From Methyloglobulus morosus KoM1 (GTDB taxonomy: Bacteria; Pseudomonadota; Gammaproteobacteria; Methylococcales; Methylomonadaceae), in the NCBI RefSeq assembly GCF_000496735.2, contig NZ_AYLO01000049.1, forward strand, positions 1-44,521: a stretch of 44,521 nt of DNA. Reading direction: 5' to 3'. Shown here in pieces: positions 15,798-40,172 of the stretch. Position 1 is the stretch's first letter. Each line of letters opens with the position of its first letter. Below the pieces are notes generated by a model. That model had not been told where the DNA came from. It made no database searches and saw nothing but the letters and a program-made list of their open reading frames with translations. Both the position numbers and the translations under genes were made by a program.

Positions 15798-16110
15798 ATC
15801 AAAAAAATCGCCTTTCGCTTTTTGCCAAGCTTAATAATTACTGTTCCGTTGGAGCTACGTATCCATGCCACCGTAAGTCCGTATGTGATATCGATGGAAA
15901 AATAGAAAGGGCGTGGTTCTGCTTCCGCCTCTTCTTTGGATTTGCCTATTGAGTGGACTGCGAATATCTTCCGGTTCATTCATTAAACAGGCAGCAGGGG
16001 CAGCTCTGTATGCCTGGGCAGGGCAAAACGCCGTCAGATAGGACAACGGGGCTTCTGAATCTAAAAAATCGCTCAACTGGGTGTTTGTGAAATCCGGACA
16101 AGATCAATTT
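15798..16110. other. Gap of 313 bp between SLATT and SLOG genes
   Basis: Short minus-strand frames (15791-15979 and 15855-16076) cover it but resemble nothing I recognise. The second is in the same frame as the SLOG gene, separated by TAG and TAA stops. Decayed coding sequence is possible. Confidence 0.4.
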
Positions 16111-16677: not shown

Positions 16678-16880
16678 TTTTAGTCCCTCTTTTCAAATGA
16701 TTATGAATTGCGGCATTTTTATTGAAGTATAGCATCGGGCATGTTAGAGCTTGTCAATTAATAAATTTGTCTCGTAACATCGGGCAACGAACGGCACAAT
16801 AAAATGATTGGTTGCTAAGCGAATTACTCTGAAACTTTTATTCTGTAAGAGATTTTAATGTTTGCACGTGCAACCCTTCC

Positions 16881-17483: not shown

Positions 17484-17597
17484 GGAATTCTCCTTGTTGC
17501 TGAATATATGTTTCTATATTTAATTGCCTTATCCCTTCGCTAGACATATTGCTCGGAAACAATAACTTTCTATAAAACTTAGAGTTTAGATTAGTAT

Positions 17598-18263: not shown

Positions 18264-18418
18264 TTCTCTAATCCAAATTAGCGCCTGAATTTTATACAAG
18301 CCAACCAACAAACCTCATTCAGCCAACCATTCATTAAAAACTTCCTAAATAACCCAAGACACAGTCCCTACCCATAACCTCATAATCCATTGCATTAAAG
18401 AATGCCAACAGAAGTGTC

Positions 18419-21025
18419 CTATTGGCTTCCCAAATTAAGCAAACGAGCCAATTTGCCCCGTGCCAAGAACAACGGATCGAAAACATAGAGATGCAGTTTG
18501 GCCAAGCAGAAACCAGTCAAGGCAATCGAAAATTTAATCGCCAAACTGCGCGTTTCCTTTTTCGGATTTAGCCATTTCAAAGCCGGTAAAAAAAGCCCCG
18601 CAATTACGCCCAGCAATACAAACACCGCACCGCCTACCGAGATTGAGATAAAAGTATTTTGCCATTGCAACATAATTAGTTTGGACAGCACCAACAATAT
18701 CAATCCAGCTACCGCATACCCCGTATATTTGAGCCATGGAGCCAAATACCAGGCCTTGAAGAATAAGTTGCTGCCGACCTGCAATTGTAGAGCTAAGTCT
18801 TTGCGCTTGTCTGACGCTTGATCGCCTGGCTTTTCGGCCAACAAATCCTTCAATTTTAGAAACTCCCAGCTTCGCTGTTGTAGGGCATTGATTTCAAAGC
18901 CGCCCCAGTTGTCGGATTTACCGTCTTTTTTATGTTGCCTATCCAAAACTTTCAATTGCTGCTCGGTCATCATATAACCGCTTGCCATCAGAGCGTAAGC
19001 CTCCACCTCTGTAAAAGAATCGAGATCAGTGCGAAGTGAGGCAATTTTTGCTTGTAAATCCTTTGCAATGCCGTAGGACGTCAGCTCAGTGTCGGCAATG
19101 GCTGGTTTTAGGTCTTGGCAATCGATCCAATCCAACGACCTGCCGACCAAATCTTTTTGCATATGAATAAAAAAAACACCTTCCAGCGCGAAGCTATCGA
19201 GGCGATTACGCAAATCCAAATATTCCGCTTCGCGGACCCTATCTTGCAACACTGAAACTGTCCGCAGCAACACGCCGCCCGGATCATCCGCCGGGTTTTT
19301 CTCATCACCCATTTGACCGCTGGCATCGCTGCATAATACCAGGGTACAAGCTTCATTCAATAGGCCTTGCACCCCCTGATTATCGTGAACACCACCGTCG
19401 ACCAATTTGACGGAACGGCTTTCATAAAGCTGGTCTATAACAAGAGGTTCAAACAAACCGGGTACACAAGAAGAAGCCGCCGCCGCATAACCCACTCGAT
19501 ATTTTTTAAGATGGTCGGGTGCCTGGGCATAATAAAGGCGTCGATAACGTTGATTGCTATCAATATCAATCAGGCCAGGAGGCTCGCCCATCCAACTGGC
19601 TGTAAAGCACCAGTTATGGCCGGAATTCAGCGAGCTGGTATTCAATAACAGCACTGGAACTTTGCTACGACGACGCCAATTGTGGAAACTAGGCTTAAAG
19701 TCTGTCCCCTGAAATTTGCCATGCGCCGGCCTCACTAACAACTCAGGCATGTGACGAGGTTGGTGGCCTTTGTTGTCGGCAACCCTTGAGTATAATTCCT
19801 CTTCGTACAACTCACCCAACTTATGGCTGCGTGTATAGCTACTGGAAAATAACATCCTGATGTTGTCAAAAAAATTGTTGAACGCACGCATCCGAATATT
19901 AGCTTGCACACCTTGCAAAAAATCGTTTTGCAGCTTTTGAATTAAGTCCAGGTAATCGTCTTTACTTAAATTTTTGGTTGAATCCTGGAGCAAATTTTGG
20001 GCTTCCAAATAATACTGGGCACCCAAAATGCTGCCGCCCGAAACTGTCGATATTACCTCTACACTACGCAAAGCGTCCACTTCTGCGAGTCGTGCCATTA
20101 CGCCCAAGTGGAAAAAAGATGCCCGGAAACCACCGCCAGATAAAGCGAGCCCCACTTTACCGCGATAGCAACCTAACGCTTCGGCAGTGTTATCCCCCAA
20201 TAAATGTTGCAACGCTTTCCATGCCTCATGCCACTGGTCCGGATTTTGACTTTCCGTGGGCGCTTCAATACCTTGCTGTCGTGCTATCCCGACCCATTGT
20301 CGGAAAGTAGTTTGAAGCTCCCATTCTTTAGCTTCAACTTGTCGTGCCTTGTCGAGCCATGTTGCGGCTTCGGAGTACTTTCCCAACCCATAGCAAGCCT
20401 CGCCAATAGTGACCAAAAACCAGTACTGCTTCGCAAGATCAGGATTATTCTGCTGACTTAATAAAAAATCGTGGATATTTAGACGTATTTCTTTAGCTTC
20501 CTTTCGTAATTCGGGCGCCTCTTTGGGCTTTAAGCCACTTTTCCTATCTAACCTTTCAGCACGCGCCGCCAATAAGTCCATTAAGTAGGCTGCACTTAAG
20601 CCTCCATAACCCATATCCTGCTGTTGATTTCGTTCCCAAGCTGCCCGGTAAAAGGCCAGGCTTTCAAAAAGATTGCTCAATTGTCCATTAAATTCCCACA
20701 GCCTTTTATAAATCGCGCCTCCTAACGCCAGCGTTTCGGCATCCTTGTTGTCCGCCTTTCGCAAATTGATCGATTCAAGCAACGCGAGTGCCGTTTCATA
20801 ACGATGTTTCGGATAAAGCGCTTCATCTTTATAAGTACACAACGCCAATTGTTGGACTATCCAAATATCTTGAGAATAATCATCACGCACTTTTTCCAGC
20901 AATTTACGGGCTTTTCCAAAATTCAATTCGCCTTTAAGCTCATTAACCTCGGCTTTTATTTTTTGTAATTTCGGTATTTTTCTACCTGACAAAATCGTGT
21001 CTGTCGTTTCGGCCTCATTGGTCAT
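18419..21025 (-). CDS. TPR-S / patatin / transmembrane fusion
   Basis: This 868-residue protein has a helical-repeat sensor region (about 20-250) with IWIVQQLALCTYKDE and LGGAIYKRLWEFNG. These match the TPR-S features of the protein at 12238-13590 (FVLQKLALATYKSE, WGAVHKRLWEETG). A patatin lipase follows: oxyanion loop LALSGGGFRASFFHLG near 293-308, nucleophile in STVSGGS with Ser329, and partner Asp in LVDGGVHDNQG. The last ~120 residues hold three or four transmembrane helices (YTGYAVAGLILLVLSKLIML, ISISVGGAVFVLLGVIAGLF). So sensor, lipase and membrane anchor are in one chain, consistent with a self-contained membrane-attacking effector; that is inference. It has no close co-directional partner: 774 bp with an insertion-sequence scrap separate it from the next gene. 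Confidence 0.82.
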   Translation of the reverse strand: MTNEAETTDTILSGRKIPKLQKIKAEVNELKGELNFGKARKLLEKVRDDYSQDIWIVQQLALCTYKDEALYPKHRYETALALLESINLRKADNKDAETLALGGAIYKRLWEFNGQLSNLFESLAFYRAAWERNQQQDMGYGGLSAAYLMDLLAARAERLDRKSGLKPKEAPELRKEAKEIRLNIHDFLLSQQNNPDLAKQYWFLVTIGEACYGLGKYSEAATWLDKARQVEAKEWELQTTFRQWVGIARQQGIEAPTESQNPDQWHEAWKALQHLLGDNTAEALGCYRGKVGLALSGGGFRASFFHLGVMARLAEVDALRSVEVISTVSGGSILGAQYYLEAQNLLQDSTKNLSKDDYLDLIQKLQNDFLQGVQANIRMRAFNNFFDNIRMLFSSSYTRSHKLGELYEEELYSRVADNKGHQPRHMPELLVRPAHGKFQGTDFKPSFHNWRRRSKVPVLLLNTSSLNSGHNWCFTASWMGEPPGLIDIDSNQRYRRLYYAQAPDHLKKYRVGYAAAASSCVPGLFEPLVIDQLYESRSVKLVDGGVHDNQGVQGLLNEACTLVLCSDASGQMGDEKNPADDPGGVLLRTVSVLQDRVREAEYLDLRNRLDSFALEGVFFIHMQKDLVGRSLDWIDCQDLKPAIADTELTSYGIAKDLQAKIASLRTDLDSFTEVEAYALMASGYMMTEQQLKVLDRQHKKDGKSDNWGGFEINALQQRSWEFLKLKDLLAEKPGDQASDKRKDLALQLQVGSNLFFKAWYLAPWLKYTGYAVAGLILLVLSKLIMLQWQNTFISISVGGAVFVLLGVIAGLFLPALKWLNPKKETRSLAIKFSIALTGFCLAKLHLYVFDPLFLARGKLARLLNLGSQ

Positions 21026-25455: not shown

Positions 25456-26865
25456 GTGGAGATTTCAGAATTGAACGGTTTGAGTGACGCAAATTGGTTT
25501 TCCTTAGAACAATCGATTGAAGCAGGAAATGTTATTCCAGTCGTTGGCCCAGATGCATTAATGGTCGAAATAAAAGACAAAAATGGGGACATTAGCACGG
25601 AATCATTTTATCGACTGGTTACATTGGATCTGCTTAAGGCTTTTCAACTCGACCACCAACCTGAACTTCTCGACCATACTTGGTCACTTCATAAGGCCGT
25701 TACCGCCATATTAACGAACAAAAGCGGCCCAGGCATCGAGCAACGTGTCCGGCGTGAAGTTTCCCGCCTCATCACCTACTACAGCGAAGCGTCCAGGCCA
25801 GCTGAAAGCCTGCGATTGCTGGCTGGAATCCCTACGTTTAGCTTATTCGTCAGCCTGACTCCTGACAATTTACTGCAGCGGGCGATGACAACATCGGAAG
25901 GCGCTACGGAAGTTTGCATCAGTGCCTTTTCACCCCGCGATGCGTCTGAGTCAGTTGCTGATTTATCAATCCTACGCCAAGGCGAACGCGGAATATTTCA
26001 GATATTAGGGGCCTGTACCAATGTCGGTAGTGGATTCGCCATGCATGAAGAAGATGCGGTAGAATATCTTTATCGACTTCATTCAGATTCGGCACGCCGC
26101 TTTGGGAACATTTTGTCCGAACTACGCCGTCGCGACCTTTTATTTATCGGTTGTAATTTTCCGGACTGGTTGGGTCGCACCATGCTAAGGCTGGTTAACG
26201 ATAACCGCTTTTATGCAAAAGATACCCAGGAGTTTCTTTGCCCTTCCGTGAGCGATGCCGGATTGAGCTCCTTCCTGACCCAATATAGCCCAAATACCCT
26301 TGGCTTCGAAGGGCAGCCTGAAGCGCTAATTTTGAAATTGGCAAACCGATTTAATCGTGCCCCGTTGCCCCAACCGCAAAAACTGCAGTCCAACAATCAA
26401 CTCGCCCCTACTGCATTCGTCAGCTATGCAAGTGAAAATGCGGAACCGGCTCGCCAAATTGCGGACATTTTGCTTAATCTCGGTTTTAGGGATGTATGGC
26501 TGGATAAAAAGAAGTTGATTGGGGGCGATGATTGGTCTGACCGTATCGATGAAGCCATCATCAAGAGCGATTTTTTCATACCCATCCTGTCTCAACAAGC
26601 CGACTCCCGTCGTGAGGGCGTGTTTTGGGATGAATGGAAAACGGCGTTAGAGCGCGCAAGACGCATTAAGGATGCCTATTTGCTGCCCGTGTGCATCGAC
26701 AAGGAGCCTCCCTCAAAAAGCCGCTATCGTCGTATTTCCGATGGGGATACCGCCGTATTTTTCGACAAGCACCTTATTCATGCCCCTAACGGAGAACTGC
26801 GACCGGAAGATCGCGATGCATTGAGCGAACGCTGCCGCCGTTTCTTGGAGGATTCACATGGCTGA
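25456..26865 (+). CDS. SIR2-like / TIR two-domain protein
   Basis: This is a 469-residue protein. Residues about 12-300 fit the SIR2-like domain of bacterial immune proteins: IEAGNVIPVVGPDAL near 20-35, FSLFVSLTPDNLLQRA and LLFIGCNFPDWLGRTMLRL. Residues 316-469 are a TIR domain (TAFVSYASENAEPARQIADI, VWLDKKKLIGGDDW, then GVFWDEW with Glu393 as the likely catalytic Glu). Both families can consume NAD. The SIR2 part looks degenerate: the TTxxD motif reads SLTPD, and the usual active-site His (VYHLFGK-like) is Gln in IFQILGA. So TIR is probably the working enzyme. The start is a GTG at 25456 with a poor RBS. The stop overlaps the STAND-WD40 gene by 8 bp, indicating one operon and probably one complex. 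Confidence 0.82.
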   Translation: MEISELNGLSDANWFSLEQSIEAGNVIPVVGPDALMVEIKDKNGDISTESFYRLVTLDLLKAFQLDHQPELLDHTWSLHKAVTAILTNKSGPGIEQRVRREVSRLITYYSEASRPAESLRLLAGIPTFSLFVSLTPDNLLQRAMTTSEGATEVCISAFSPRDASESVADLSILRQGERGIFQILGACTNVGSGFAMHEEDAVEYLYRLHSDSARRFGNILSELRRRDLLFIGCNFPDWLGRTMLRLVNDNRFYAKDTQEFLCPSVSDAGLSSFLTQYSPNTLGFEGQPEALILKLANRFNRAPLPQPQKLQSNNQLAPTAFVSYASENAEPARQIADILLNLGFRDVWLDKKKLIGGDDWSDRIDEAIIKSDFFIPILSQQADSRREGVFWDEWKTALERARRIKDAYLLPVCIDKEPPSKSRYRRISDGDTAVFFDKHLIHAPNGELRPEDRDALSERCRRFLEDSHG

Positions 26866-29800
26866 CTTGCTGGTTATCGACCAGGAGCACCCTTGGCCCT
26901 GGTTAGAAGCTTTTCCTGAACAAGCCTCGGATTTTTTCAATGGTCGAGACGATGATACGGAAGCTTTGCTGCGTTGCGTCCTGGCCGCCCCGGTTTCGGT
27001 ATTGTTCAGCAAATCGGGGATAGGTAAATCCTCACTTCTTCAAGCAGGCCTGTTTCCTCGTCTTCGATCAGAAAGATTCTTGCCCGTTTATGTGCGCCTC
27101 TCGCACGAAAAAAACTCCGCTAGCGCTTCAGAACAAATTGCCAAGCGTTTACAGGAAGAAATACAGGGTCGATTGCAGCTTACGAACAATAAATCCCAAG
27201 CAGTTTTAGACAATGAAGAAAACTTGAAATTTCAACTTGAGGGCTCCCTTTGGCTGCAACTGCATCTAAAGGATATTGAACTGCGGGATTTGGAGGGAAA
27301 CCGTTGGTATCCCATATTCGTGCTCGATCAATTTGAGGAAATTTTCACGCTCGGCGCTTTAGATTCATCCCTGCAAAAGCAAGTATTTTATGAACTCGGC
27401 GACCTTATGGAAAACCGGATACCTAAAACCTTGGCTGAGTCGTTATACAACGATGACGACCTGTTTGACCGACTAAACTTGGATCTCCAGCCTTATCGTT
27501 TCCTGGTATCGCTTCGTGAGGATTACTTACCCGATCTTGAGGAATGGGCTGACCTGATTCCCCGACTTGGGCCGAACCGCTTTCGTCTATTACCTATGTC
27601 AGAGCCGCAAGCCATAGCAGCCATTGAAAAAACCGGCGGATCATTGGTTACCTCTGCAGATGCAAAAAATATCGTTACTTATCTGTCCCAAACCCAAACC
27701 TCGATGGCTATTGACGTCCAACGAAGGCGTTCAGCATATACTGTAGAACCGGCCCTGCTAAGCCTTATTTGTTCAGGCCTTAATGATGAACGAATTAAGA
27801 AAAAGCAAAATACATTGGAAACCGGAAATCTAGCCATGGAAGGCGGCCTAATTGTCGAACGTTTTTATGATTCCGCTTTTGCCGGGTTACCAGGATCGGT
27901 ACGAGATTTTGTCGAAAAGCATTTAATCACCACGGATGGCGTGCGGTTATCTTATCCGGTGCGCTCTATCGAGTCCAGAAAGCTGGCCACAGAGGAGCAG
28001 ATTAAAACCTTGGTCGACAGAAGGTTGATTCGCAGAGAAAATCTTGAAGATGGCGATCAAATCGAGTTAGTCCATGACCGCCTTGCCCTGGTGGCCTTGC
28101 AACACCAATTGCATAGCCAACAACGCCTGAAAGCTTCAAGGCAACAGCGTCTACGATTGTGGACTGGAATTGGGATATTCATGCTTCTGCTTTTATTTTT
28201 TTCTGCTTATATGTTCAATGTCAAGAGAACGAATGAACAAAAAGAGTTAAGCATACGGCTCGCGCTAGACGGTAGCGCCATTGCAACAGGCTTGAGGACG
28301 GGAGGAAAGATACAAGGCCCGCTCAAGGTGCTTGCAGGGCATCGAATTGAGCACTCGAGCATTACGGACGAAGCCTTACAAACTGTATACCTGATCTATA
28401 AATCAATAATTTTTGTACGTGAAACCCATTCCATTATTTCCAGTATCGCTTACAGTCCGGACGGCACCCGAATTGTCACGGGAAATATGGACAATACATT
28501 ACGCTTATGGGACTCAAAAACTGGCCGTTCCTTAGCCCCTCCCTTTTACGGTCATAGCAGTTCGGCCCTAAGTGTTGCTTTCAGCCCAGATGGCACACGC
28601 ATTGTCTCCGGAAGTCGTGATAACACGTTAAGGATCTGGGATTCGAAAACTGGCCAGCCCATTGGCCAACCACTCCGGGGGCATAACGACTCGGTTACCA
28701 GTGTCGCTTTTAGTCCGGATGGGACTCGTATCGTCTCTGGCAGTCGGGACGACACTTTGATGTTGTGGAACGCCAAGAATAGGCAGCCTCTAGGCCCTCC
28801 TCTCATTGGCCATGTTTCCTATGTTCGAAGTGTCGCCTTTAGTCCAGACAGCACCCGTATCGTATCAGGAAGTGACGACAAGACCCTGCGCCTGTGGGAC
28901 GTTAACACCCGCCAGCCTATCGGCCAGCCCCTCAGAGGTCATGACGGGGCAATTATAAGTGTAGCGTTCAGCCCAGATGGTGCCCGAATCATCTCCGGGA
29001 GTAGAGATAATACTCTCAGGATGTGGGATACCAGTTCCGGCAAAACACTGGGCCAGCCGCTCAGTGGGCATACGGATTCAGTAACCAGCGTGGCTTTCAG
29101 TCACGATGGCAAATTAATTGTCTCGGGAAGCGAGGATAACACGTTGCGGTTGTGGAACGCTAATACCAGGCAAGCGATAGGGCAGCCCTTATTGGGTAAT
29201 GAGGATGCAGTTACCGGCGTTGCCTTCAGCCTTGATAACACACATATCATTTCGGGCAGTTCCGACACCACCTTACGGATGTGGGACCCCGACGTTGACC
29301 ACTCGACTGGTCAACCGATCCTAAGCCACGAGGACAGGGTTACTACAGTTGCTTTCAGCCCCAATGGCACCCAGATAGTTTCTGGAAGTGACGATAATAC
29401 ATTACGGCTTTGGAGCATTAAAACTCGCCAACCCATCGGTGAACCTCTCAAGGGACATGAGAAATCGGTTACAAGTGCTGCCTTTAACCCGAATGGTACC
29501 CTTATCGTATCGGGTAGCGACGATAAAACACTACGGCTTTGGAACACTAGCACTGGCCAACCCGTCGGTGAACCACTGACGGGTCATGAAGACGCGGTTT
29601 CGAGTGTTGCGTTTAGTCCGGATGACACTTTAATTGTTTCTGGCGGTGCCGACAAGACATTGCGGCTCTGGGATGCAACTACAAGAAAACCTGTTGGCCA
29701 ACCGATAAAAGGCCATGAAGGTTCTATTACGCATGTTGCCTTCAGCCCTGATGGAAAACGGATTGTTTCCAGTAGCGGGGATAATACCCTGCGTCAGTGG

Positions 29801-30385
29801 GACTCAAGTACTGGGGAATCCATTGGCCAACCCATTATCGGTCACGGCGGCACCGTATTGAGCGCTGCTTTTAGTCCGGATGGCACTCGAATTGTCTCTG
29901 CCTTTGAAGACGGAACTTTGCGACTGTGGGATACTAAAACCAACCAGCCAATCGGGCAGCCATTAAAAGGCCATAGAGGATCGGTTTTTAGTGTTGCCTT
30001 TAGTCCTGATGGCTCTTCTATCATTTCTGGGGGCGGTGATAAAAACTTGCGGCTTTGGGATGTCAATACTGGATTGCCTGTTGGTCTGCCGCTAAGGGGA
30101 CATAAAGATGCGGTAATGAGTGTTGCTTACAGCCCTGATGGTACGCTTATTGTCTCGGGTAGCGGCGATGACACCCTTCGGTTGTGGAAAGGGTCTAACG
30201 GCATGGCTGCAGAAATTTGCAAAAAACTCGGACGTAACATGAGCCGCCAGGAATGGCGTGAACTGGTATCTAAGGATACCAATTACATTAAGCAATGTCC
30301 GGGCTTGGCAATTCCACCGGATGAACAGGATACAAGCGTTGCAGTTGATTCAATATTAAAATCACCTGAAATGATTGCTGACTAA
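26858..30385 (+). CDS. STAND NTPase (nSTAND1-type) with 14 WD40 repeats
   Basis: This 1175-residue protein is a signal-sensing switch ATPase. FFNGRDDDTEALLR leads to Walker A KSGIGKSS at 52-59 and Walker B FVLDQFEE near 154-161. SLREDYLPDLEEWADLIPRL is a typical nSTAND1 segment. A transmembrane helix lies near 432-452 (GIGIFMLLLLFFSAYMF). Residues 524-1115 are fourteen WD40 repeats of 43 residues each, enough for two seven-blade propellers. The C-terminus (EICKKLGRNMSRQEW, CPGLAIPP) matches the usual ending of such proteins. RBS GGAGG lies in the end of the SIR2-TIR gene, which it overlaps by 8 bp. The likely model is that the propellers recognise a trigger, the NTPase oligomerises and the TIR partner is activated. 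That model follows from related systems and has not been shown here. Confidence 0.9.
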   Translation: MADLLVIDQEHPWPWLEAFPEQASDFFNGRDDDTEALLRCVLAAPVSVLFSKSGIGKSSLLQAGLFPRLRSERFLPVYVRLSHEKNSASASEQIAKRLQEEIQGRLQLTNNKSQAVLDNEENLKFQLEGSLWLQLHLKDIELRDLEGNRWYPIFVLDQFEEIFTLGALDSSLQKQVFYELGDLMENRIPKTLAESLYNDDDLFDRLNLDLQPYRFLVSLREDYLPDLEEWADLIPRLGPNRFRLLPMSEPQAIAAIEKTGGSLVTSADAKNIVTYLSQTQTSMAIDVQRRRSAYTVEPALLSLICSGLNDERIKKKQNTLETGNLAMEGGLIVERFYDSAFAGLPGSVRDFVEKHLITTDGVRLSYPVRSIESRKLATEEQIKTLVDRRLIRRENLEDGDQIELVHDRLALVALQHQLHSQQRLKASRQQRLRLWTGIGIFMLLLLFFSAYMFNVKRTNEQKELSIRLALDGSAIATGLRTGGKIQGPLKVLAGHRIEHSSITDEALQTVYLIYKSIIFVRETHSIISSIAYSPDGTRIVTGNMDNTLRLWDSKTGRSLAPPFYGHSSSALSVAFSPDGTRIVSGSRDNTLRIWDSKTGQPIGQPLRGHNDSVTSVAFSPDGTRIVSGSRDDTLMLWNAKNRQPLGPPLIGHVSYVRSVAFSPDSTRIVSGSDDKTLRLWDVNTRQPIGQPLRGHDGAIISVAFSPDGARIISGSRDNTLRMWDTSSGKTLGQPLSGHTDSVTSVAFSHDGKLIVSGSEDNTLRLWNANTRQAIGQPLLGNEDAVTGVAFSLDNTHIISGSSDTTLRMWDPDVDHSTGQPILSHEDRVTTVAFSPNGTQIVSGSDDNTLRLWSIKTRQPIGEPLKGHEKSVTSAAFNPNGTLIVSGSDDKTLRLWNTSTGQPVGEPLTGHEDAVSSVAFSPDDTLIVSGGADKTLRLWDATTRKPVGQPIKGHEGSITHVAFSPDGKRIVSSSGDNTLRQWDSSTGESIGQPIIGHGGTVLSAAFSPDGTRIVSAFEDGTLRLWDTKTNQPIGQPLKGHRGSVFSVAFSPDGSSIISGGGDKNLRLWDVNTGLPVGLPLRGHKDAVMSVAYSPDGTLIVSGSGDDTLRLWKGSNGMAAEICKKLGRNMSRQEWRELVSKDTNYIKQCPGLAIPPDEQDTSVAVDSILKSPEMIAD
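28427..30202 (+). repeat. Tandem array of 14 WD40 units of 129 bp
   Basis: The units are exactly 43 codons long with a core close to SVAFSPDGTRIVSGS, then DNTLRLWD and GQPLRGH. Thirteen are full and the last lacks its final 10 codons. The amino-acid similarity between units is high, which points to amplification and exchange among repeats. Confidence 0.9.
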
Positions 30386-30777: not shown

Positions 30778-32823
30778 ATGACATCCGATCTTCTAGCTGG
30801 CCCTATATTACGAAGCACCACCCAGAAATGTATTTGCGTGTGGCTGGCAACAGACAAAAAACGGGATTTGACCTTAGAAATTATAGATAGGGGGACAGGC
30901 AATGTGATTGGTTGCAGCAAACCCATAGAGTTAGAATCCAGCAGGGTCCAGCTTGGGGCTGGCTTGTTTGTTTACTTACTAAAAGCCTACCCTATTGAAG
31001 ACAAGGATATAAAAAACTTTTCTACGGGCAAATTGTATTGTTATTCGTTGTTGGACGAACAGCAAGGAAAACCATTGGACCTGAATGCAGAAGGGGTAAC
31101 TTATGATAATCAACCCTACCCGATTTTTCACATTCCTGGCTCGTTAAAATCCTTATTGCATGGTAGTTGCCGTAAACCGCATGGCGCTAAAGGTCAAGAT
31201 TGTTTGGTAGTTGGCGATAGCCTACTTAAAGATACCTATAGCAATATCGCTGGTCGTCCAGACTTGCTACTATTAACTGGCGACCAAATCTATGCGGACG
31301 ACGTCGATGCCTCCCTATTAAAGATGATAACGGATCAAGCTGGAAAAATATTAGGCCATCAAGAATCTTTACCACAGTCCGAATACGGGAAAGATGACAA
31401 GCCCCCTGTCATCCCTAGTACCATTGAATTAGGTGGGCGAATGGATGTCCTAAAAGAATGCCAATCTGGATTCAGTTCCCAAGAAGCTGGCAACCATCTC
31501 ATGGGGTTCGGGGAATTTGCTGCCATGTACATTTATGTATTTGGTAATGCCCAGGGATGGAAAATACCAACTCGGTCGGAAAACGAGGCTGACCGTGTGA
31601 AGGTCAATAATAAACAGCAAGCAAGTATAAATGTTTCTTCGGATCCTGTTTCTGATTTTGCTCAGGACTTAGGCAAAGTTCGTCGATTGCTGGCCAATAT
31701 CCCGACGTATATGATCTTTGACGATCATGATGTAACCGATGACTGGAACATTACAGGGAACTGGTACGACACGGTTCGTACATCCCCGTTTGGCAGACGT
31801 ATTGTTTCGAATGCTTTAGCGGCTTACTGGGCGTTCCAAGACTGGGGCAATAATTCGGATAATATTGATACTGACATGATCGATGCTATCAAAAAATATG
31901 TAAATAAGACTGAACCCGATTTTGCTAATGACGAATTGTATGATTTTCTCACTTGGAAGCATAGGGGGTGGGGATTTTCTATTAATACATATCCGCCCAT
32001 TATCGCGATAGATTCGCGAACGCAGAGACAATCAGATAACCCATATTATCCACCACGTTTATTGGATAAGTATGGATTGGACGGATTACGTTTGGAATGG
32101 CTAAAATTAAAGTCGAATAAAGATGAAAATCCTCTTATTGACGAAACGACCTGTCCCATCTTTATTGCTACCACACCAGTTTTTGGCTTTGCCCCGTTGG
32201 AACACATACTGCGGCTACTATTATGGTTTGTGAGTCACATTGAAAATTTATTATTGATTAAAATTAATGAAAATTATTTTGGAAAAAAAGGGTTCTTAAC
32301 AAAAAAGTTTGTTTATGAAAAAGATGCTGAGACATGGACGGCAAATTTAGATGGCTATACTGATTTTTTAGATACCTTGCTACACAAAATGAATATTAAT
32401 CATTGTGTCTTTTTATCCGGCGACATCCACTATTCATTTACTGCGATAGGTACGTATACAAGCACCAATATGTCTTCGAACGCCAAAAAGACCTTGGACT
32501 CTTATCAGTTGACCAGTTCCTCACTAAGGAACGAACCCGGCACTTTACAGAAAAAAGCGCTGAGTACGATAGAGAGAACAGATGAGGGATTTATTAATTG
32601 GAGCAAAATTCGAAAATGGTTTACCACGAATCTTTTCTTTTATCGGACTTGGAAATCCGACTACGAATTGCTAAAACTTGAAAATCAAGGCCAAAAGATA
32701 TACTCTCAATGCAATCTAGGAGAGGTTGTTTTCAAAGATGGCTTGCCGATCAACCACAAATTGTGGCACTCGAAAGACAGTTTCGTTGAGTATAAAATTT
32801 CCCCAAACAAGAACAGCATATAA
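30778..32823 (+). CDS. PhoD-like metallophosphatase, no signal peptide
   Basis: The 681-residue enzyme belongs to the PhoD-like phosphatase/phosphodiesterase group, two-metal enzymes that cleave phosphoesters. Motifs are LLHGSCRKP at about 126-134, LLTGDQIYADD at 165-175, FDDHDVTDDW at 314-323 and LSGDIHYS at 546-553. These together supply the metal-ligand Asp and His residues. The N-terminal ~120 residues form a beta-rich domain typical of the family. There is no Tat or Sec signal peptide, unlike secreted alkaline phosphatase D, so it is probably cytoplasmic. RBS AAAGGGG lies 7 bp before the ATG. It is transcribed in the same direction as the STAND operon but 392 bp away. Whether it belongs to the defence genes is unknown. 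Confidence 0.85.
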   Translation: MTSDLLAGPILRSTTQKCICVWLATDKKRDLTLEIIDRGTGNVIGCSKPIELESSRVQLGAGLFVYLLKAYPIEDKDIKNFSTGKLYCYSLLDEQQGKPLDLNAEGVTYDNQPYPIFHIPGSLKSLLHGSCRKPHGAKGQDCLVVGDSLLKDTYSNIAGRPDLLLLTGDQIYADDVDASLLKMITDQAGKILGHQESLPQSEYGKDDKPPVIPSTIELGGRMDVLKECQSGFSSQEAGNHLMGFGEFAAMYIYVFGNAQGWKIPTRSENEADRVKVNNKQQASINVSSDPVSDFAQDLGKVRRLLANIPTYMIFDDHDVTDDWNITGNWYDTVRTSPFGRRIVSNALAAYWAFQDWGNNSDNIDTDMIDAIKKYVNKTEPDFANDELYDFLTWKHRGWGFSINTYPPIIAIDSRTQRQSDNPYYPPRLLDKYGLDGLRLEWLKLKSNKDENPLIDETTCPIFIATTPVFGFAPLEHILRLLLWFVSHIENLLLIKINENYFGKKGFLTKKFVYEKDAETWTANLDGYTDFLDTLLHKMNINHCVFLSGDIHYSFTAIGTYTSTNMSSNAKKTLDSYQLTSSSLRNEPGTLQKKALSTIERTDEGFINWSKIRKWFTTNLFFYRTWKSDYELLKLENQGQKIYSQCNLGEVVFKDGLPINHKLWHSKDSFVEYKISPNKNSI

Positions 32824-33355: not shown

Positions 33356-34696
33356 CTATTCCGTTTTCTTTATCACCTTTCTTATTTGATAAAACAACCG
33401 TTCCAACAACCTCATATCTTCGGTGACAATTTCCGCTTGCCCCTGCATTTCTTGATGGAAGCCGAGGGTCTTTTTATAACTAGTCACCAGCGGACTGGGC
33501 AGAATGGCTTCGACTGTATAAAGATTTTCCCTGGGGATCAAAGAAATCGAATTGATTTGACTGACAATTTGCCCATATTCCTGGTAGGGGTAAGCCGCCA
33601 GTTTGATCAGGATTTTTTGGCCTTTTTTGACCTTGCCGGAATTTTCCAAAGGCATTTTCATTTTCGCCAGTATGGTTTGTTTTTCAAATGGGACAATACT
33701 GACGACTTCCTCGCCCGAATTGACAAATTGGTGTTCACCCCAATATTTTGAAAAGACCAACCTTCCGTCAATCGGGGAAACCAATAGAAAATTCTTTTCC
33801 CATTGGCTTAAGCTGGTTTGCAAGGCTTGGTAGGCCTCTTCAAGGTTAAGCTTGAAAGCTTCCCGTTTATTGGTATCCGCTACCCGCAGGTCATTGAGTT
33901 CGGCACTCAGGTTGGTCAACTCTACCCGTATTCGGGTGGCTTCCAGGCTCATTTGTTCTTGTTGGCGACGGTTATTCAAGGAAGTCAACTGTTTCTCATC
34001 AACACTATTGGCTGAGACCAGATTTTTTTGCAACAAGGCCTGAAACCTAAGCAGGTTTTTGTCAAGCAACGTATTTTCATTCTGTAGGATGACTCCTTGC
34101 CGCTGAAATTTTTCCAGCATGGCCTCAAGCTGAAGCTGTTTTTGTTGGTTGATCGCAATCTTTTTGGGCAGTGGATTCAATTCCAAAAAAAACAGGAGTT
34201 CATTGACTTGTTTTTGGAACAGCGCGAATTGATTTTGGCTATCGCCCAGCCTTAAATTCTGGGGTAAACTCGATAAAAACCGTAAATCGTCACGGTGGCT
34301 ATTGTAGTGTCTAAGCCAGTCTTTTAACGCACTGACATCCGTGTAAGATGTTGGGCTATCGAGCACGGCAATCAACTCGTTTTTTGTTACTTGCCGGTCT
34401 TCCGAATTTTTAAGCCAATGCAGTTTCCCGCTTTGGCGAGCCACCAAACTGGCTGGCGGAATGGGCGTGGTGATTGTCACCTTGGCGGAAACTATATCGG
34501 GGTATTTCACCATCCAAGACAGCGCGATGATGGCGACCATAATAGACAGCATGACAACACCGCCCCATCGTAATATCCATGCGGGCGGTTTACCCAGCAA
34601 TTCCTGGGTATAGATACTGTATTCGCAGGATTCAAGCGAGCGTTCTTTAGACCGTTCAACTAGGCCATGATTTGAATATGTCGTTAGCCCAGGCAT
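33356..34696 (-). CDS. HlyD-family adaptor of a peptide ABC exporter
   Basis: This 446-residue membrane-fusion protein has an N-terminal cytoplasmic arm (about 1-40), one transmembrane helix (about 44-64, GGVVMLSIMVAIIALSWM), a long coiled-coil hairpin (about 130-290) and a beta-barrel half with SPIDGRLVFSKYWGEHQFVN. It is the usual partner of peptidase-containing ABC exporters, linking them to an outer-membrane channel such as TolC. It starts 2 bp after the C39 ABC gene, so the two are co-translated. No outer-membrane channel gene is in the window. It closes the RiPP operon. Confidence 0.88.
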   Translation of the reverse strand: MPGLTTYSNHGLVERSKERSLESCEYSIYTQELLGKPPAWILRWGGVVMLSIMVAIIALSWMVKYPDIVSAKVTITTPIPPASLVARQSGKLHWLKNSEDRQVTKNELIAVLDSPTSYTDVSALKDWLRHYNSHRDDLRFLSSLPQNLRLGDSQNQFALFQKQVNELLFFLELNPLPKKIAINQQKQLQLEAMLEKFQRQGVILQNENTLLDKNLLRFQALLQKNLVSANSVDEKQLTSLNNRRQQEQMSLEATRIRVELTNLSAELNDLRVADTNKREAFKLNLEEAYQALQTSLSQWEKNFLLVSPIDGRLVFSKYWGEHQFVNSGEEVVSIVPFEKQTILAKMKMPLENSGKVKKGQKILIKLAAYPYQEYGQIVSQINSISLIPRENLYTVEAILPSPLVTSYKKTLGFHQEMQGQAEIVTEDMRLLERLFYQIRKVIKKTE

Positions 34697-34698
34697 CG

Positions 34699-36900
34699 CT
34701 ATTGCCCCAATTCCAGTTGATTTTTGACCAAATGATAATAAGCGCCTTTCAATGCAGTCAGTTCTTCATGATTGCCGTTTTCAACCACCCTACCTTTATC
34801 CAGCACAATAATTTGGTCGGCATTTTTTACGGTACTCAAACGATGGGCTATGACAACAACCGTTCGGCCCTGATAAAACGATTGTAAATTTTCCATAATG
34901 ACGCGCTCGTTCCTGGCATCCAACGCGCTGGTCGCTTCATCAAAGAACAGGTAATCAGGATTCTTGTATACCGCCCTTGCGATCAGGATCCGTTGATTTT
35001 GACCGCCGCTTAACGATATGCCATTAGCCCCGATTTCGGTATTGATGCCATTCGGCAAGACATCGATCAGTTCCCCCAGATTGGCAATTTCAATGGCCTG
35101 GTTCAGCCTCATCCTGTCAATCAACCCTTCCGATTCAGATTCGGTTATATTCCGCAGCACCGTATCATGAAAAATAAAACCATTTTGCATGACCACGCCG
35201 CATTTTTGCCGCCACAAGGCCATGTCTATATCTTCAAGATGGATATTGCCAACACGAATTTTGCCTTGGGTCGGCGGATAAAACCGGAGCAACAGCTTCA
35301 ATAACGTGGTCTTGCCGCTGCCGCTGGCACCCACAATAGCGGTCACCTTGCCCTGCGGAATCGTCATGTTAAGGTTCTCAAGGACCATCGGTGATTTTTT
35401 CCTGCCGTATTGAAAAGACAAGTCATTTTCCATAACAATGGTTTGGTCATGGCTCAGCAAATAGGTCATGGGCTGATTATCAGACTCGTTATTTTGGTCA
35501 TGAATTTCAGCCAATCTTCCCAAGCTCATTCGGGCATCCTGCATGGATTGCAAAAAGCTGACAAAATTTGAAATCGGTGCGTTCAGTTGGCCGATAATGT
35601 ATTGGACAGACAGCATCATCCCCAATGTCATCCCGCCATCTATCACCGACTTGGCACAATAAAAGGTAATCAGGATATTTTTCAGCTCATTGATAAAGTT
35701 TGCACCCGTCATTTGATATTGATAAAGCGCCAGGCTTTTCACCGACACCTTAAACAACCGGACTTGGATACGCTCCCATTCCCATCTTCTCCTTCGTTCA
35801 GAATTGTTCAGCTTGATTTCTTGCATCCCGTTAATCAACTGGACCATGTTGCTTTGGGTCTTTGATGCTTGGTCGAAGCGTTGATAATCCAAGGCCGCCC
35901 GTTTTTTCATAAACAATAAAACCCAGGTAGCATATAGGCTGATGCTAGTGACAAAAATCATCAATATAGTCAAGTTGTACCATGCCAGGGCCATACCAAA
36001 AACCAGCAGGTTGACCAGGGAAAACAAGGTCGTCAGCGTAGATGACGAAAGAAATTCTTCAACGCGATGATGATCCTGGATACGCTGCAGCAGGTCACCA
36101 ATCATTTTGGTATCGAAGAACGAGACGGGCAGTTTTATCAGCTTGATTAAAAAATCGGATATGATGGCAATATTGATCCTTGCCCCGATATGCAGCAAAA
36201 TCCAACTGCGCAACAGTTCGACCGAGGTTTGTGACAAAAACAAGGTGAGCTGTGCAGCCAACAGCACATAAACGAAGTTGAGATTTTGGTAATTGATACC
36301 ATAATCCACCAACGACTGCGTGAGAAAGGGGAATGCCAGCAGAATCAGGCTACCCACCAACAAACCTAAAAATAGCTGGACGAACAGTGAGCCGTATGGA
36401 CGAAAATACGGCCATAAAAAACCAAGCCCTTTTGACCTTTCTTTCTTAAAATCCTGGTCGACATAGAATTCCGGGGTGGTATCCAATAACAGCAAGATGC
36501 CTTCGTCGGTTGTATCAGGATTGACCCTATTCAACCAACCCGCCATGAATTCCTGTCTCGTATATTTGATCAGGCCAAAGGCCGGATCGGCAACGTACAC
36601 CGTATTTTTTTTGATGGCATACACAACGACAAAATGCTTCTGTTGCCAGTGCGCGATGCAGGGCAACAAGACTTCTTCTTGCAGTGTTTGCATCGATGCC
36701 CTGATGGCAACCGTTTTCAGGTTGAAATTTTCGGCGGCATCAGAAATCCCACCCAGTGTCACGCCCAATCGGGTAATACTGCATTTTTCCCGAAGTTCAT
36801 CCATGGGCAGAATACGCCCATAATGGCGCGCCACCATGTGCAGGCAGGTTGGGCCGCAATCCATAGCATCCATTTGTTTCTGAAAGGCGAATTTAGGCAT
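34699..36900 (-). CDS. C39-peptidase ABC transporter (PCAT) for a double-glycine peptide
   Basis: This 733-residue protein removes leader peptides after a double glycine and exports the core. The N-terminal C39 protease (about 1-130) has Cys15 in MDCGPTCL, His89 in QKHFVVVY and Asp105 in VADPA, the full catalytic set. Residues about 150-440 are the six-helix membrane domain. Residues about 470-733 are the ATPase with Walker A GASGSGKTT, signature LSGGQ and Walker B YLFFDEATSALD. It lies 82 bp after the radical SAM gene and 2 bp before the HlyD gene. The matching substrate is the small precursor at 38053-38277 with an ELLEASGG leader end. Confidence 0.92.
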   Translation of the reverse strand: MPKFAFQKQMDAMDCGPTCLHMVARHYGRILPMDELREKCSITRLGVTLGGISDAAENFNLKTVAIRASMQTLQEEVLLPCIAHWQQKHFVVVYAIKKNTVYVADPAFGLIKYTRQEFMAGWLNRVNPDTTDEGILLLLDTTPEFYVDQDFKKERSKGLGFLWPYFRPYGSLFVQLFLGLLVGSLILLAFPFLTQSLVDYGINYQNLNFVYVLLAAQLTLFLSQTSVELLRSWILLHIGARINIAIISDFLIKLIKLPVSFFDTKMIGDLLQRIQDHHRVEEFLSSSTLTTLFSLVNLLVFGMALAWYNLTILMIFVTSISLYATWVLLFMKKRAALDYQRFDQASKTQSNMVQLINGMQEIKLNNSERRRRWEWERIQVRLFKVSVKSLALYQYQMTGANFINELKNILITFYCAKSVIDGGMTLGMMLSVQYIIGQLNAPISNFVSFLQSMQDARMSLGRLAEIHDQNNESDNQPMTYLLSHDQTIVMENDLSFQYGRKKSPMVLENLNMTIPQGKVTAIVGASGSGKTTLLKLLLRFYPPTQGKIRVGNIHLEDIDMALWRQKCGVVMQNGFIFHDTVLRNITESESEGLIDRMRLNQAIEIANLGELIDVLPNGINTEIGANGISLSGGQNQRILIARAVYKNPDYLFFDEATSALDARNERVIMENLQSFYQGRTVVVIAHRLSTVKNADQIIVLDKGRVVENGNHEELTALKGAYYHLVKNQLELGQ

Positions 36901-36982: not shown

Positions 36983-38041
36983 CTATTGCCAACCCACGGC
37001 AACCGCTTGCTTTTGCGTCGGCTTATGATGGGAAGCTACCCTCAGCTTTTCGTCCCAATTGAAAATAACGGGATTGCCGGAGTCGATTGCTTCCATATAA
37101 GCCTTATTGCACAAACCATAAAACTCCGCCATCCGCCCCCGCCGCCAATCATAGGCCAAGTGCTTGAAGGAAGCCGAATGTAGGTTTCCGAATCCGTAAT
37201 ACCGTGAAAAGCCGTATTGCAATGGCGATACAAAGCCATCGGGTTCGATGACAAGCCCGCCAACGCAATCCGCCAATAAAGCATCATTGTCCGGCATCGA
37301 ATTGCTGGCATAAACCAAATCTGGATTAGCTTCCAAACTATGCCGGTTGGCAAAATCGACTTGAATGGTCAACTCATCTTTGAGTTGCTCCTGCAACGTC
37401 CCGGCTATCAAATAAGCATAAGCGGATTCAACACGGTCGGGCATATCTTCGGCTAAATTGCCGTTGGCAAAACCGCCTTCTTCCAAGGGATGGATTTGTA
37501 ATAATTTGGCACCTTGCTCCAGCGCAAAATTGACCACCCAATCCAGTTCATTCAGGTTGTATTGCGTGAGGGTAAAGATAAAGCCGAAATTAATCCCGGA
37601 TTGCCTGAGCAAATCCAGGTTGGCCGCCATTTTTGCAAAGGCCTTGTCGGAATTACGCATCCTGTCGTGCGCTTCGGGTACGCCGTCAAGGCTAATCGCA
37701 ATCGTGTCCACCACGTCTTTTAGCTGGCTTAGCCACTGTTCATTCAGCAACATCCCATTGCTGGCTATGGCCGTCCTAAGCCCAAGCCCTTTTGCATGTG
37801 CCAACAGCGTTGGCAACGGTTTGTACAATAAGGGTTCTCCACCGGAAACACTGACATAATCATAGCCTTCTGCCGCCATTTCAGTCAGAGTCCCGCAAAG
37901 CAGCGCAACGCTTAACGCGCTGCGCTCCCTGGGTGATGACGAAGAATAACAATGAAGGCAACTCAAGTTACACAAGCGGCTTGGATGTATCTGTATGACC
38001 CTGGTGTTCCCAGTCGACCTTAACTGTTGCTTCTTCTTCAT
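36983..38041 (-). CDS. Radical SAM peptide-modifying enzyme
   Basis: I place the start at the ATG at 38041 (352 residues) with RBS AAGGGG 8 bp upstream. The frame extends to a GTG at 38143 inside the precursor gene, which is unlikely. The [4Fe-4S]/SAM motif is CNLSCLHC (Cys24, 28, 31) and SGGEPL follows at 66-71. IASNGMLL and ISLDGVPEAHDRMR are typical of SPASM-type peptide maturases. The C-terminal part (DCVGGLVIEPDGFVSPL, GFGNLH) has the SPASM layout but only Cys259 and Cys311, so extra clusters are doubtful. The enzyme probably installs a C-C or ether cross-link in the precursor encoded 11 bp upstream. The chemistry is inferred. Confidence 0.88.
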   Translation of the reverse strand: MKKKQQLRSTGNTRVIQIHPSRLCNLSCLHCYSSSSPRERSALSVALLCGTLTEMAAEGYDYVSVSGGEPLLYKPLPTLLAHAKGLGLRTAIASNGMLLNEQWLSQLKDVVDTIAISLDGVPEAHDRMRNSDKAFAKMAANLDLLRQSGINFGFIFTLTQYNLNELDWVVNFALEQGAKLLQIHPLEEGGFANGNLAEDMPDRVESAYAYLIAGTLQEQLKDELTIQVDFANRHSLEANPDLVYASNSMPDNDALLADCVGGLVIEPDGFVSPLQYGFSRYYGFGNLHSASFKHLAYDWRRGRMAEFYGLCNKAYMEAIDSGNPVIFNWDEKLRVASHHKPTQKQAVAVGWQ

Positions 38042-38052
38042 GGCGTTACCCC

Positions 38053-38277
38053 TTAAAACGTTTTGACGTTTATGCTTGGTATGGTTGTGGCAGGATTTAT
38101 TGCACCGTAATTTAAGACTGCCGGTATCCCGCGTATCCACCACGATTGAAGGACTCCACCAGCACCGCCACTGGCTTCCAGCAGCTCTTCCACCTGTTGG
38201 AAGTCTTCTATTGAACGAACACCCGTTTTGCCACAGGTGAATTGCAGTTTTTCAGATCCTCTTTGTTTTTGGTTCAT
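38053..38277 (-). CDS. RiPP precursor peptide with double-glycine leader
   Basis: This is a 74-residue peptide beginning MNQKQRGSEKLQF. The ATG at 38277 has GGAG 8 bp upstream; an in-frame ATG at 38283 is too close to the same RBS. The leader includes SIEDFQQVEELLEASGG at residues 22-38, with Glu at -8 and Leu at -7 relative to the GG, as in C39-cleaved leaders. Cleavage there would release a 36-residue core starting AGGVLQSWWIRG, with a Trp pair and a hydrophobic Asn/Thr/Pro-rich tail. A second possible GG at 40-41 is less like the consensus. The radical SAM enzyme starts 11 bp downstream and its RBS overlaps this stop codon. WWIR is a plausible cross-link site because three-residue cyclophane enzymes attack Trp; that is speculation. 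Confidence 0.78.
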   Translation of the reverse strand: MNQKQRGSEKLQFTCGKTGVRSIEDFQQVEELLEASGGAGGVLQSWWIRGIPAVLNYGAINPATTIPSINVKTF

Positions 38278-38331
38278 GGTCATTTCTCCATAAAGATTGA
38301 ATACACAACGGCATGCGTGATTGCCTACCGT

Positions 38332-38717: not shown

Positions 38718-40172
38718 TTAGACCGTTAGAATAGTGATAGTGGGTGTATTCAACTTAATGTCCTGGTCAAATCCCCGCACCAAAATAATATTATCCCCTT
38801 CGACAGCCAATCCAGTCTTCAGGGCATGGTGGCGTGCCAATTTATTCGGATGGGTCAGGCCTGCATCTTCACAATAGACAGGTATAACTCCCCAGTAAAG
38901 ATTCATTCGTTGGCAAACCCTTTTATCGGCACTGATCGCTATCAGCGGGGCTTCCGGCCTTGCCGAACACAAGGTAATAACGGTCATTCCGGCTTTGGTA
39001 ATGCTGACGATAGCTTTTGCCTTCAGGTCAAAGCAAAGCTGGGCTGTTGCATCGGCGACGGCATGGCCGAACGGCAACATCTTTAACTCACTTTCACGCG
39101 ACACTGTTTTGCCAAAAATCGCTTGCCCCCGCATAAACGCTTCCGTTTGATTGATGATCCTTACCATCATCGCCACAGTTTCAACGGGAAATTTCCCTGC
39201 TGCCGTTTCGGCGGACAGCATCACCGCATCTGCCGCCCAATAAACCGCATTGGAAACATCCGTCGCTTCGGCACGCGTAGGCCTTGAACTTTCAATCATG
39301 GACTCTAGCATCTGCGTAGCGACGATGACCGGTTTATTCAATGCCCTTGCCCTTTTGATTAGCTGATGTTGGACAATCGGCACATCCTCCGGGTTTAGTT
39401 CGACCCCTAAATCACCGCGAGCAATCATAATGGCATCTGCGGCATTGATGATTTCCTCTCCGTTGGTTAATGCTTCAGGTTTTTCAAGTTTGGCGATGAT
39501 GTGGGTTTCGTAGCCATTTGAAGCAATTAATTGGCGAAGATCGGCAATGTCTTCGGCCTTTCTTACGAAGGAAAGCGCCAGATAATCCACCCCTAATGCC
39601 AAGGCAAACAAGGCATCCGCCCTGTCCTTTTCGGTCAATGACGGACAAGATACATGGACACCGGGAAGATTGATGCCCTTATTGTTTTTAAGCTCGCCGC
39701 CGTAGATGACTTCGCAAGTAACATCGGTGGTATTTTTGTCGATAACCTTGAGTTCCAATTTGCCATCGTCCAGCAGTATCCGGTCACCGGATTTTACGTC
39801 ATTGGCGAGATCGGCATACTGGCAGGGAATCAGGTTGTCCTCGCCCAGGACATCGCGCGTGGTTACCACCACTCGGTTGCCGGGTTTAAGTGTAATACTG
39901 CCGTTATTAAATCTTCCGGTTCTGATTTTGGGCCCGCAAAGGTCAGCCAATATAGTGATATGCTGGTTTAATGCGTTTGCTGACTCTCTAATCAGGTGAT
40001 AAATTTTGCGGTGACCCTCATGCTCGCCGTGCGACATATTCAACCTGAAGACATTGACACCGGCATCAATAAGGTCATGGATGACTTCAGCCGTATTTGA
40101 TGACGGCCCTAACGTAGCGATTATTTTAGTTTTACGACTCGATAGCGGAGGCAGATTGACGGTAATTGACAT
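38718..40172 (-). CDS. pyk: Pyruvate kinase
   Basis: This 484-residue enzyme makes pyruvate and ATP from phosphoenolpyruvate and ADP, the last step of glycolysis. Family motifs are clear: KTKIIATLGPSS near the N-terminus, VFRLNMSHGEHEGHR, LADLCGPKIRTGRF, IIAKLEKPEAL, the active-site MIARGDLGVELNPEDVPI, and SAETAAGKFPVETVAMM. Length fits bacterial enzymes. RBS AAGGAAG lies upstream of the ATG at 40172. It is flanked by unrelated genes and appears monocistronic. Whether it is the fructose-1,6-bisphosphate-activated or AMP-activated type cannot be told by eye. Confidence 0.97.
   Translation of the reverse strand: MSITVNLPPLSSRKTKIIATLGPSSNTAEVIHDLIDAGVNVFRLNMSHGEHEGHRKIYHLIRESANALNQHITILADLCGPKIRTGRFNNGSITLKPGNRVVVTTRDVLGEDNLIPCQYADLANDVKSGDRILLDDGKLELKVIDKNTTDVTCEVIYGGELKNNKGINLPGVHVSCPSLTEKDRADALFALALGVDYLALSFVRKAEDIADLRQLIASNGYETHIIAKLEKPEALTNGEEIINAADAIMIARGDLGVELNPEDVPIVQHQLIKRARALNKPVIVATQMLESMIESSRPTRAEATDVSNAVYWAADAVMLSAETAAGKFPVETVAMMVRIINQTEAFMRGQAIFGKTVSRESELKMLPFGHAVADATAQLCFDLKAKAIVSITKAGMTVITLCSARPEAPLIAISADKRVCQRMNLYWGVIPVYCEDAGLTHPNKLARHHALKTGLAVEGDNIILVRGFDQDIKLNTPTITILTV

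Follow-up and report, generated by a model that had tools for sequence, protein, structure and literature searches.

In radical S-adenosylmethionine (SAM) maturation of ribosomally synthesized and post-translationally modified peptides (RiPPs), a SPASM enzyme crosslinks the Aromatic-X-X motif of triceptides, or three-residue cyclophanes, and SkfB, the sactisynthase of the sporulation killing factor, makes thioethers. PMC6231123 describes an N-terminal RiPP recognition element (RRE) in SkfB and a twitch domain whose Cys351, Cys385 and Cys387 hold an auxiliary cluster. SuiB, the streptide enzyme, has an RRE and two auxiliary clusters according to PMC8326336 and PMC6231123, and the former calls auxiliary Fe–S clusters essential in radical SAM RiPP cyclases and their function controversial. 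Here we describe a four-gene cassette in a 44,521-nucleotide stretch of Methyloglobulus morosus KoM1 (contig NZ_AYLO01000049.1, hereafter the window), in which a short peptide with a double-glycine (GG) leader is encoded beside a radical SAM enzyme. By its logic this is a radical SAM RiPP system, and as far as sequence comparison can tell, its unusual feature is the loss of both the auxiliary cysteines and the RRE together with a G-x-P motif in the substrate. We consider it highly likely that the enzyme modifies this core peptide and that a C39 peptidase trims and exports it; that confidence extends neither to the crosslink proposed below nor to any bioactivity.

Precursor peptide and cassette

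Read directly from the sequence, the cassette runs along the minus strand in the order 74-residue peptide, radical SAM enzyme, C39 peptidase–ATP-binding cassette (ABC) exporter and HlyD, all in the same direction and separated by 11, 82 and 2 bp. The precursor gene (38053–38277, including the stop codon at 38055–38053) ends exactly 11 bp before the ATG of the 352-residue enzyme at 38041 (gene 36983–38041). The 733-residue exporter (34699–36900) and the 446-residue HlyD-type periplasmic adaptor (33356–34696) follow. Pfam recovers Radical_SAM (PF04055, E 2.9e-22), Peptidase_C39 (PF03412, E 7.9e-35), ABC_membrane (PF00664), ABC_tran (PF00005) and HlyD_3 (PF13437, E 7.2e-12). A sequence-only reading of positions 36983–38283 had proposed a 74-residue precursor with a leader ending in ELLEASGG and a core beginning AGGVLQSWWIRG, lying 11 bp ahead of a radical SAM gene that a C39 exporter and HlyD follow. 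Each of these details is borne out by the sequence, and by Pfam for the exporter and adaptor; the peptide and enzyme do lie within that stretch, but the cassette continues to 33356. The gaps hold no further gene and no extra tailoring gene, and no regulator gene is visible in the four-gene cassette or between its genes.

Two ATG codons, at 38283 and 38277, could open the peptide frame. We place the start at 38277, which gives 74 residues, because a GGAG sequence at 38289–38286 (38286–38289, minus strand) is suitably spaced to act as its ribosome-binding site and because the N termini of the homologues fit. The 38-residue leader (38164–38277) ends in LLEASGG, and the 36-residue core (38056–38163) that starts with AGGVLQSWWIRG contains no Cys. 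Homologues stand at the same position in six other genomes of the taxonomic family, with GG at the leader end in all seven precursors. The pattern [WF]x1-2[RKYH]G[IQTMV]P occurs only twice in the six-frame translation of the window, here and in one 9-residue frame. This rarity, together with the homologues at the same place in relatives, argues that the peptide is not a chance open reading frame (ORF).

Leader and core have diverged at very different rates. Against the nearest relative (locus L005), 35 of 38 leader residues are identical (non-synonymous divergence, dN, 0.05; synonymous divergence, dS, 0.69) and 14 of 36 aligned core residues (dN 0.44, dS 0.70), the values being uncorrected Nei–Gojobori proportions from this one pair. 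The pairs among L007, L008 and L009 are too similar for the same comparison. Such a contrast in this pair is what the RiPP pattern would lead one to expect, with a conserved leader for handling joined to a product that diversifies. Across seven aligned short precursors, a G-S-x-K-L element near the N terminus has G7, S8, K10 and L11 invariant; in the window it reads RGSEKL (38245–38262) and is a candidate enzyme-recognition element.

The core carries the sequence WWIRGIP (38122–38142), the likely modification site as judged from motif statistics over 16 non-redundant cores. The motif [WF]-x2-3-G-[IQTMV]-[PIVL] is found in 16 of these 16 cores, against a shuffled mean of 1.2 and maximum of 5 (2000 shuffles), having been defined on the same cores in which it was counted. 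The stricter [WF]-x2-3-G-x-P is present in 13 and absent from L068, L073 and L074. An aromatic residue lies 3–4 positions ahead of the motif Gly in every core tested, and in 15 of 16 cores the aromatic-linked Gly is preceded at least once by R, K, Y, H or F (shuffled mean 2.5). A related pattern also matches four small non-precursor frames in the family loci, one in L055 and three in L075. Cys is missing from 14 of the 16 cores and occurs once each in L069 and L076.

The precursors come in two forms. Short peptides with a GG or GA leader are found in the family of the window, in Nitrosomonas, and in L063, L066, L068 and L145. Long precursors of 98–130 residues (L069, L070, L072–L076) have no GG leader of the short-form kind, so that their core was taken as the C-terminal part, cut by eye; most carry two or three motif copies, as in WWKYGQPAID...FPYGIPVPEW. 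A structural model of the L069 precursor (7573–7905), of moderate confidence (predicted local distance difference test (pLDDT) 69.5), has a hairpin–helix–hairpin arrangement with the motifs in the hairpin turns, which suggests an internal duplication. Foldseek returned no match to this model at E ≤ 0.001, and we did not accept homology to its best hit, the PilO core (7.6e-3). In two distant peptides, FPWGIKDPDM (L153) fits an FPxGI form and fails the strict pattern, and MIDGITDPE (L146) is without the aromatic; by sequence comparison, the element in both is related to the core motif and not identical to it.

Conservation across relatives and export partners

A search of 201 genomes from the window's taxonomic family gave a radical SAM match at E ≤ 1e-20 in 78, and seven, the window's own included, carry an orthologue-like enzyme (E ≤ 5.2e-128, 55–100% identity). 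The remaining matches share 27–34% identity, and the three of them that were scanned all scored as NirJ above its cut-off (614–626 bits). A separate search with the peptide touched 38 genomes at E ≤ 1, in which the same seven stand apart at E ≤ 1.5e-8, the next match being at 0.026. In all seven the peptide lies upstream of the enzyme, and the C39-ABC exporter and HlyD follow in that order. The sequence-only reading had asked for precursor homologues beside the enzyme in related loci, and these are present in 7/7 family genomes; motif peptides also stand beside most distant relatives, with the exception of G1001, discussed below. The genes flanking the cassette vary between genera, and three genomes of one genus (g6) have some of them in common. 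Of eight sampled genomes of the same genus, only the window's own has the cassette enzyme.

Wider searches added few members. At E ≤ 1e-60, nine of 311 genomes of the order matched, adding G1001 and a fragment in G1049; the class search (369 genomes) gave one further member, G891, and a search centred on G891 covered six genomes and found only G891 itself. The phylum search (398 genomes, E ≤ 1e-40) returned the window's own genome, G588 and G590 (1e-53) and G257 (5e-41), the enzyme of the last being NirJ (526 bits). No viral carrier was found in a scan of viral contigs with one Nitrosomonas homologue, which detects close relatives only, and no plasmid carrier among 60 matching plasmid records, all below 60% identity with the top-ranked at 26.5%. 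The enzyme family is patchy and rare.

A scan of genome contigs with the enzyme alignment gave the best 80 of at least 545 relatives. Among the matches listed, L060–L077 are relatives at 37–75% identity, and L078–L139 (26–36% identity) were set aside as other radical SAM proteins, no family scan being applied to them. L060/L005, L061/L010 and L067/L008 were each counted once, and four loci were added: L145 (G891), L146 (G590), L150 (G1001) and L153 (G1289). A small upstream ORF could be read as the precursor at 24 of 25 loci examined; L071 and G1049 meet a contig edge and were left out of this count, which includes many near-copies (L062–L065; L069/L070; L007–L009). The labels include Nitrosomonas (L062, L064, L065, L077), Granulosicoccus (L068), Rhodanobacter (L069, L070), Bacteroidetes (L073) and Flavobacterium amniphilum (L074), and a relative is present in Nitrosomonas oligotropha strains Nm45 and Nm75. 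Two labels, 'Nitrososphaerales' (L075) and 'cyanobacterium' (L076), come from metagenome bins and could be mistaken. As these comparisons read, the enzyme with its upstream precursor is a conserved RiPP-type cassette.

In the window exporter, Cys15, His89 and Asp105, which we take to be the catalytic residues of the C39 domain, align to the Cys/His/Asp of the double-glycine protease domain 6mpz, and the protein has a full-length match to 4ry2. These matches are shared with PCAT1-type C39 exporters, and the window combines a leader ending in GG with a neighbouring ABC exporter whose C39 residues align. Unlike the PCAT1 type, the window exporter is joined to an HlyD adaptor, an arrangement of Gram-negative exporters. 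Seven loci share the gene order radical SAM, C39-ABC, HlyD (type A). In a second order (type B: L062–L065, L068, L077, L145) the enzyme is followed by HlyD and then by a different C39-ABC protein, 27–29% identical to that of the window, whose C39 domain was confirmed by Pfam in L062. At L075 the enzyme and precursor lie beside a subtilase ORF and an ORF of PatG-type C-terminal sequence (PatG_C E 8.3e-31, PatG_D, Peptidase_S8); PatG-type proteins carry out proteolysis in cyanobactin pathways. The same stretch (L075, 1–6173), with its doubtful bin label, also encodes two peptides of 74 and 71 residues with Cys-rich tails and a tyrosinase-like protein, a possible composite RiPP cluster. In a tree of 24 enzyme rows a branch with support 65/96 sets the family-A members apart, and B and C need two changes each; 11 of 21 inner branches are open and long branches are present.

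Enzyme and peptide remain neighbours even at loci with no flagged exporter (L069, L073, L074, L146). The constant pair is peptide and enzyme, with a varying protease or exporter, an argument for the peptide being the enzyme's substrate. The RiPP assignment draws together these lines: the same seven of 201 genomes carry enzyme and precursor in a fixed gene order; leader and core differ in rate, upstream peptides occur at 24 of 25 loci and the motif in 16 of 16 non-redundant cores tested; C39 exporters with aligned residues appear in two gene orders, alongside one PatG-type subtilase partner; and the enzyme fold matches the RiPP maturases SkfB and SuiB.

Several points weigh against this assignment. 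It is drawn entirely from genes, sequence comparison and a structural model, and the core motif is a post hoc one. A textbook GG leader has hydrophobic residues at −12 and −4, and the window leader is without them. No homologue of the window's exporter pair was flagged in the stretches examined at L066, L069, L070 and L072–L076, so export is not established for the whole family; gene calls are poor in the GC-rich L069 and L070, and the L070 enzyme itself went unflagged. No immunity gene is visible at the cassette, which weakens an antibiotic role. At G1001 (L150; contig 49, 298–1332), whose enzyme shares 43% identity, a precursor could not be recognised and a hairpin resembling a terminator sits directly upstream of the enzyme; the locus is perhaps decayed or rearranged. 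Finally, PMC8326336 describes auxiliary clusters as essential to modification by the known radical SAM RiPP enzymes.

A RiPP-maturase-like fold without conserved auxiliary-cluster cysteines

The CNLSCLHC sequence (37949–37972) supplies the CxxxCxxC [4Fe-4S]/SAM motif (C24, C28 and C31), and this motif and a GGE motif within a radical SAM barrel mark the protein as a radical SAM enzyme. Its AlphaFold model is confident (pLDDT 89.8) and begins at the barrel. Its best fold matches include SkfB (Z 26.2), SuiB (24.3), BlsE (23.1), anSME (22.3), viperin (21.8), PqqE (21.6) and EpeE (19.9), and Foldseek likewise puts SkfB and SuiB first. Alignment to SkfB (PDB 6efn; 272 aligned residues, root-mean-square deviation 3.1, 21% identity) spans enzyme residues 14–339, so a twitch-like C-terminal part is present, and the two proteins share a radical SAM barrel followed by that part.

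Unlike SkfB, the window enzyme has neither an RRE nor a comparable Cys set. Across 20 aligned members only C24, C28 and C31 are common to all, and L068 has no other Cys. The family has 0–3 C-terminal Cys, against 4–6 in 23 of 23 NirJ-like controls from the same taxonomic family; the C-terminal Cys ligands for auxiliary clusters that characterise SPASM and twitch domains are therefore missing, and the fold itself is kept. Because these ligands are missing the enzyme probably carries one cluster, non-Cys ligands being possible. No PqqD or RRE domain was matched by Pfam at E ≤ 1 in the enzyme, whose model starts at the barrel; an RRE elsewhere in the genome was not searched for. BlsE and viperin, which we take to hold a single [4Fe-4S] cluster each, act on a nucleotide or nucleoside-sugar and not on peptides. 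The highest NCBIfam score was to the NirJ/heme-d1 radical SAM proteins, and an identity as NirJ was rejected since 96.7 bits falls far below the TIGR04051 curated cut-off of 515.45; all 25 families shown, of 79 at E ≤ 1, scored below their cut-offs.

In the mechanism we propose, the enzyme would first recognise the leader, perhaps through the RGSEKL element because it has no RRE domain. A probably single [4Fe-4S] cluster with SAM would then generate a 5′-deoxyadenosyl radical that abstracts a hydrogen within the aromatic-x-x-G-x-P motif (WWIRGIP), and the outcome would most likely be a crosslink that joins the aromatic ring to a residue close by, for instance the one preceding Gly. The C39 domain would cut after Gly38, between ASGG and AGG, and the ABC and HlyD proteins, together with a TolC from another locus (TolC was not searched for), would export the 36-residue product. 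Outside the cell this product probably acts on competitors or serves as a signal.

The aromatic crosslink is a tentative first choice among reactions, favoured because the aromatic precedes the motif Gly by 3–4 residues in every core and R, K, Y, H or F precedes that Gly in 15 of 16. In most motifs a bulky residue follows an aromatic at a distance of two positions (W-I-R, W-K-Y, F-P-Y), as in peptides of the streptide, triceptide and darobactin type. SuiB also resembles the window enzyme in standing beside a Trp-containing core, and differs in its RRE and its two auxiliary clusters; the triceptide motif is likewise compatible, but the window enzyme has no SPASM Cys. A crosslink made without auxiliary clusters would be unusual, since such clusters are reported as essential in PMC8326336.

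A different radical modification, near the conserved Gly or near the acidic residue found after it in many relatives (decarboxylation, hydroxylation or other oxidation, or backbone cleavage), is possible if doubtful. The cytosylglucuronate decarboxylase BlsE is a close fold match, and many relatives have Asp or Glu a few residues past G-x-P, as in GIPVDIY and FPYGIPVPEW. That residue is missing at this place in the window core and in L005, L006 and L007, which rules it out as a shared target, and we rejected it as the site of reaction. Epimerisation appears improbable: the enzyme would abstract a C-alpha hydrogen within the motif and return one to the other face, giving D-residues with no mass change. 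Such a reaction is redox-neutral and could dispense with the auxiliary clusters for which this enzyme has no ligands; EpeE, like PoyD a radical SAM peptide epimerase, is one of the fold matches; and C311, present in 14 of 20 members and in all seven of the window's own clade, could donate the hydrogen there. Known epimerases, according to PMC8326336, have a strictly conserved Cys as hydrogen donor, whereas no Cys beyond CxxxCxxC is common to all 20 members and L068 has three in total, so family-wide epimerisation would need another donor. We therefore rejected C311 as a donor for the family, and it stays a candidate within the window's own clade.

Unmodified peptides with GG leaders are common, and the window peptide could be an exported bacteriocin or pheromone while the enzyme acts on something else; we regard this as very unlikely, given that the enzyme and not the exporter is the peptide's constant partner. 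Slightly less credible still is a cofactor-type RiPP like PQQ or mycofactocin, in which a small molecule would be built from the peptide: PqqE is one of the fold matches and no exporter was flagged near L069, L072, L073, L074 and L076, yet the cassette of the window and six family relatives includes a C39 exporter, and no further tailoring gene is present in it. A thioether peptide of the sactipeptide or ranthipeptide kind was rejected because the window core has no Cys.

Thirteen precursors (window, L062, L066, L068, L069, L072–L077, L145, L146) were scanned against Pfam and NCBIfam, and no model reached its cut-off. For the window peptide itself Pfam gave nothing at E ≤ 1 and NCBIfam only RTPR at a chance-level E of 0.19. 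Weak matches elsewhere were BLP_Lacticasei (L062, E 0.013), lant_leader_L1a (L066, E 0.049) and TIGR04149 (L072, E 0.024) in NCBIfam, and Pfam matches at E 0.034–0.22. TIGR04149 (GG_sam_targ_CFB), a radical SAM-modified RiPP of Bacteroidetes, combines a GG-type leader with a radical SAM enzyme as here; on the L072 leader it scored 14.6 bits, below the 25-bit cut-off and in one precursor only, and it did not match the window peptide at E ≤ 1. That weak leader match (L072, 7664–7960) may connect the two kinds of precursor. Among the open-licence PMC titles and abstracts listed, the range searched, with subscription literature and non-PMC preprints outside it, we found no description of the cassette or motif, in line with the sequence-only reading, which could match the core to no familiar RiPP. 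'RiPP-like (bacteriocin)' clusters are reported in methanotroph genomes in PMC11964084, so the cassette may already be counted there, unnamed.

We judge the chances about evenly balanced that these loci form a RiPP class not described before. Its hallmarks would be a maturase with one cluster and no RRE, of SPASM/twitch fold stripped of its clusters, and an aromatic-x-x-G-x-P turn motif; it would span several phyla with short GG-leader precursors for export, long and mostly multi-copy precursors, and several protease and export solutions. If so, peptide radical chemistry, perhaps including crosslinking, could proceed without auxiliary clusters. A natural family of the same fold with no conserved ligands would allow a direct test of the need for them, and the compact substrate motif is easily mutated. 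Methylococcaceae-type bacteria and Nitrosomonas would gain a minimal, testable exported-peptide system.

Other genes in the window

By eye, the gene upstream of the cassette is pyruvate kinase (38718–40172, minus strand), and a convergent PhoD-like gene lies downstream (30778–32823). Promoter and terminator scans gave counts near the shuffled means and were uninformative, and an Rfam scan of the window returned no match.

Three further regions stand apart from the cassette. On the plus strand, 25456–30385 holds two overlapping genes, one for a protein of 469 residues that carries a TIR domain (Pfam TIR_2, E 4.8e-18) at its C terminus, the other for a 1175-residue protein with a long WD40 array and, by eye, a P-loop-like GxxxxGKS near its N terminus, a possible sensor–effector defence pair. 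Conflict-type genes occupy 12238–21025 on the minus strand, with two patatin-like phospholipases, two TPR-S sensor domains and a DUF4231 protein; one of the phospholipases matches PADLOC 'Effector, Phospholipase' models (E 1.7e-45). The minus strand also encodes, at 2–11132, a very large protein rich in repeats and truncated by the end of the window. Near it are a SecA-like ATPase of 665 residues, a 715-residue protein with M50-peptidase and HlyD matches and two more membrane-fusion-like proteins recognised by eye, so that the stretch looks like a locus devoted to secreting a surface protein.

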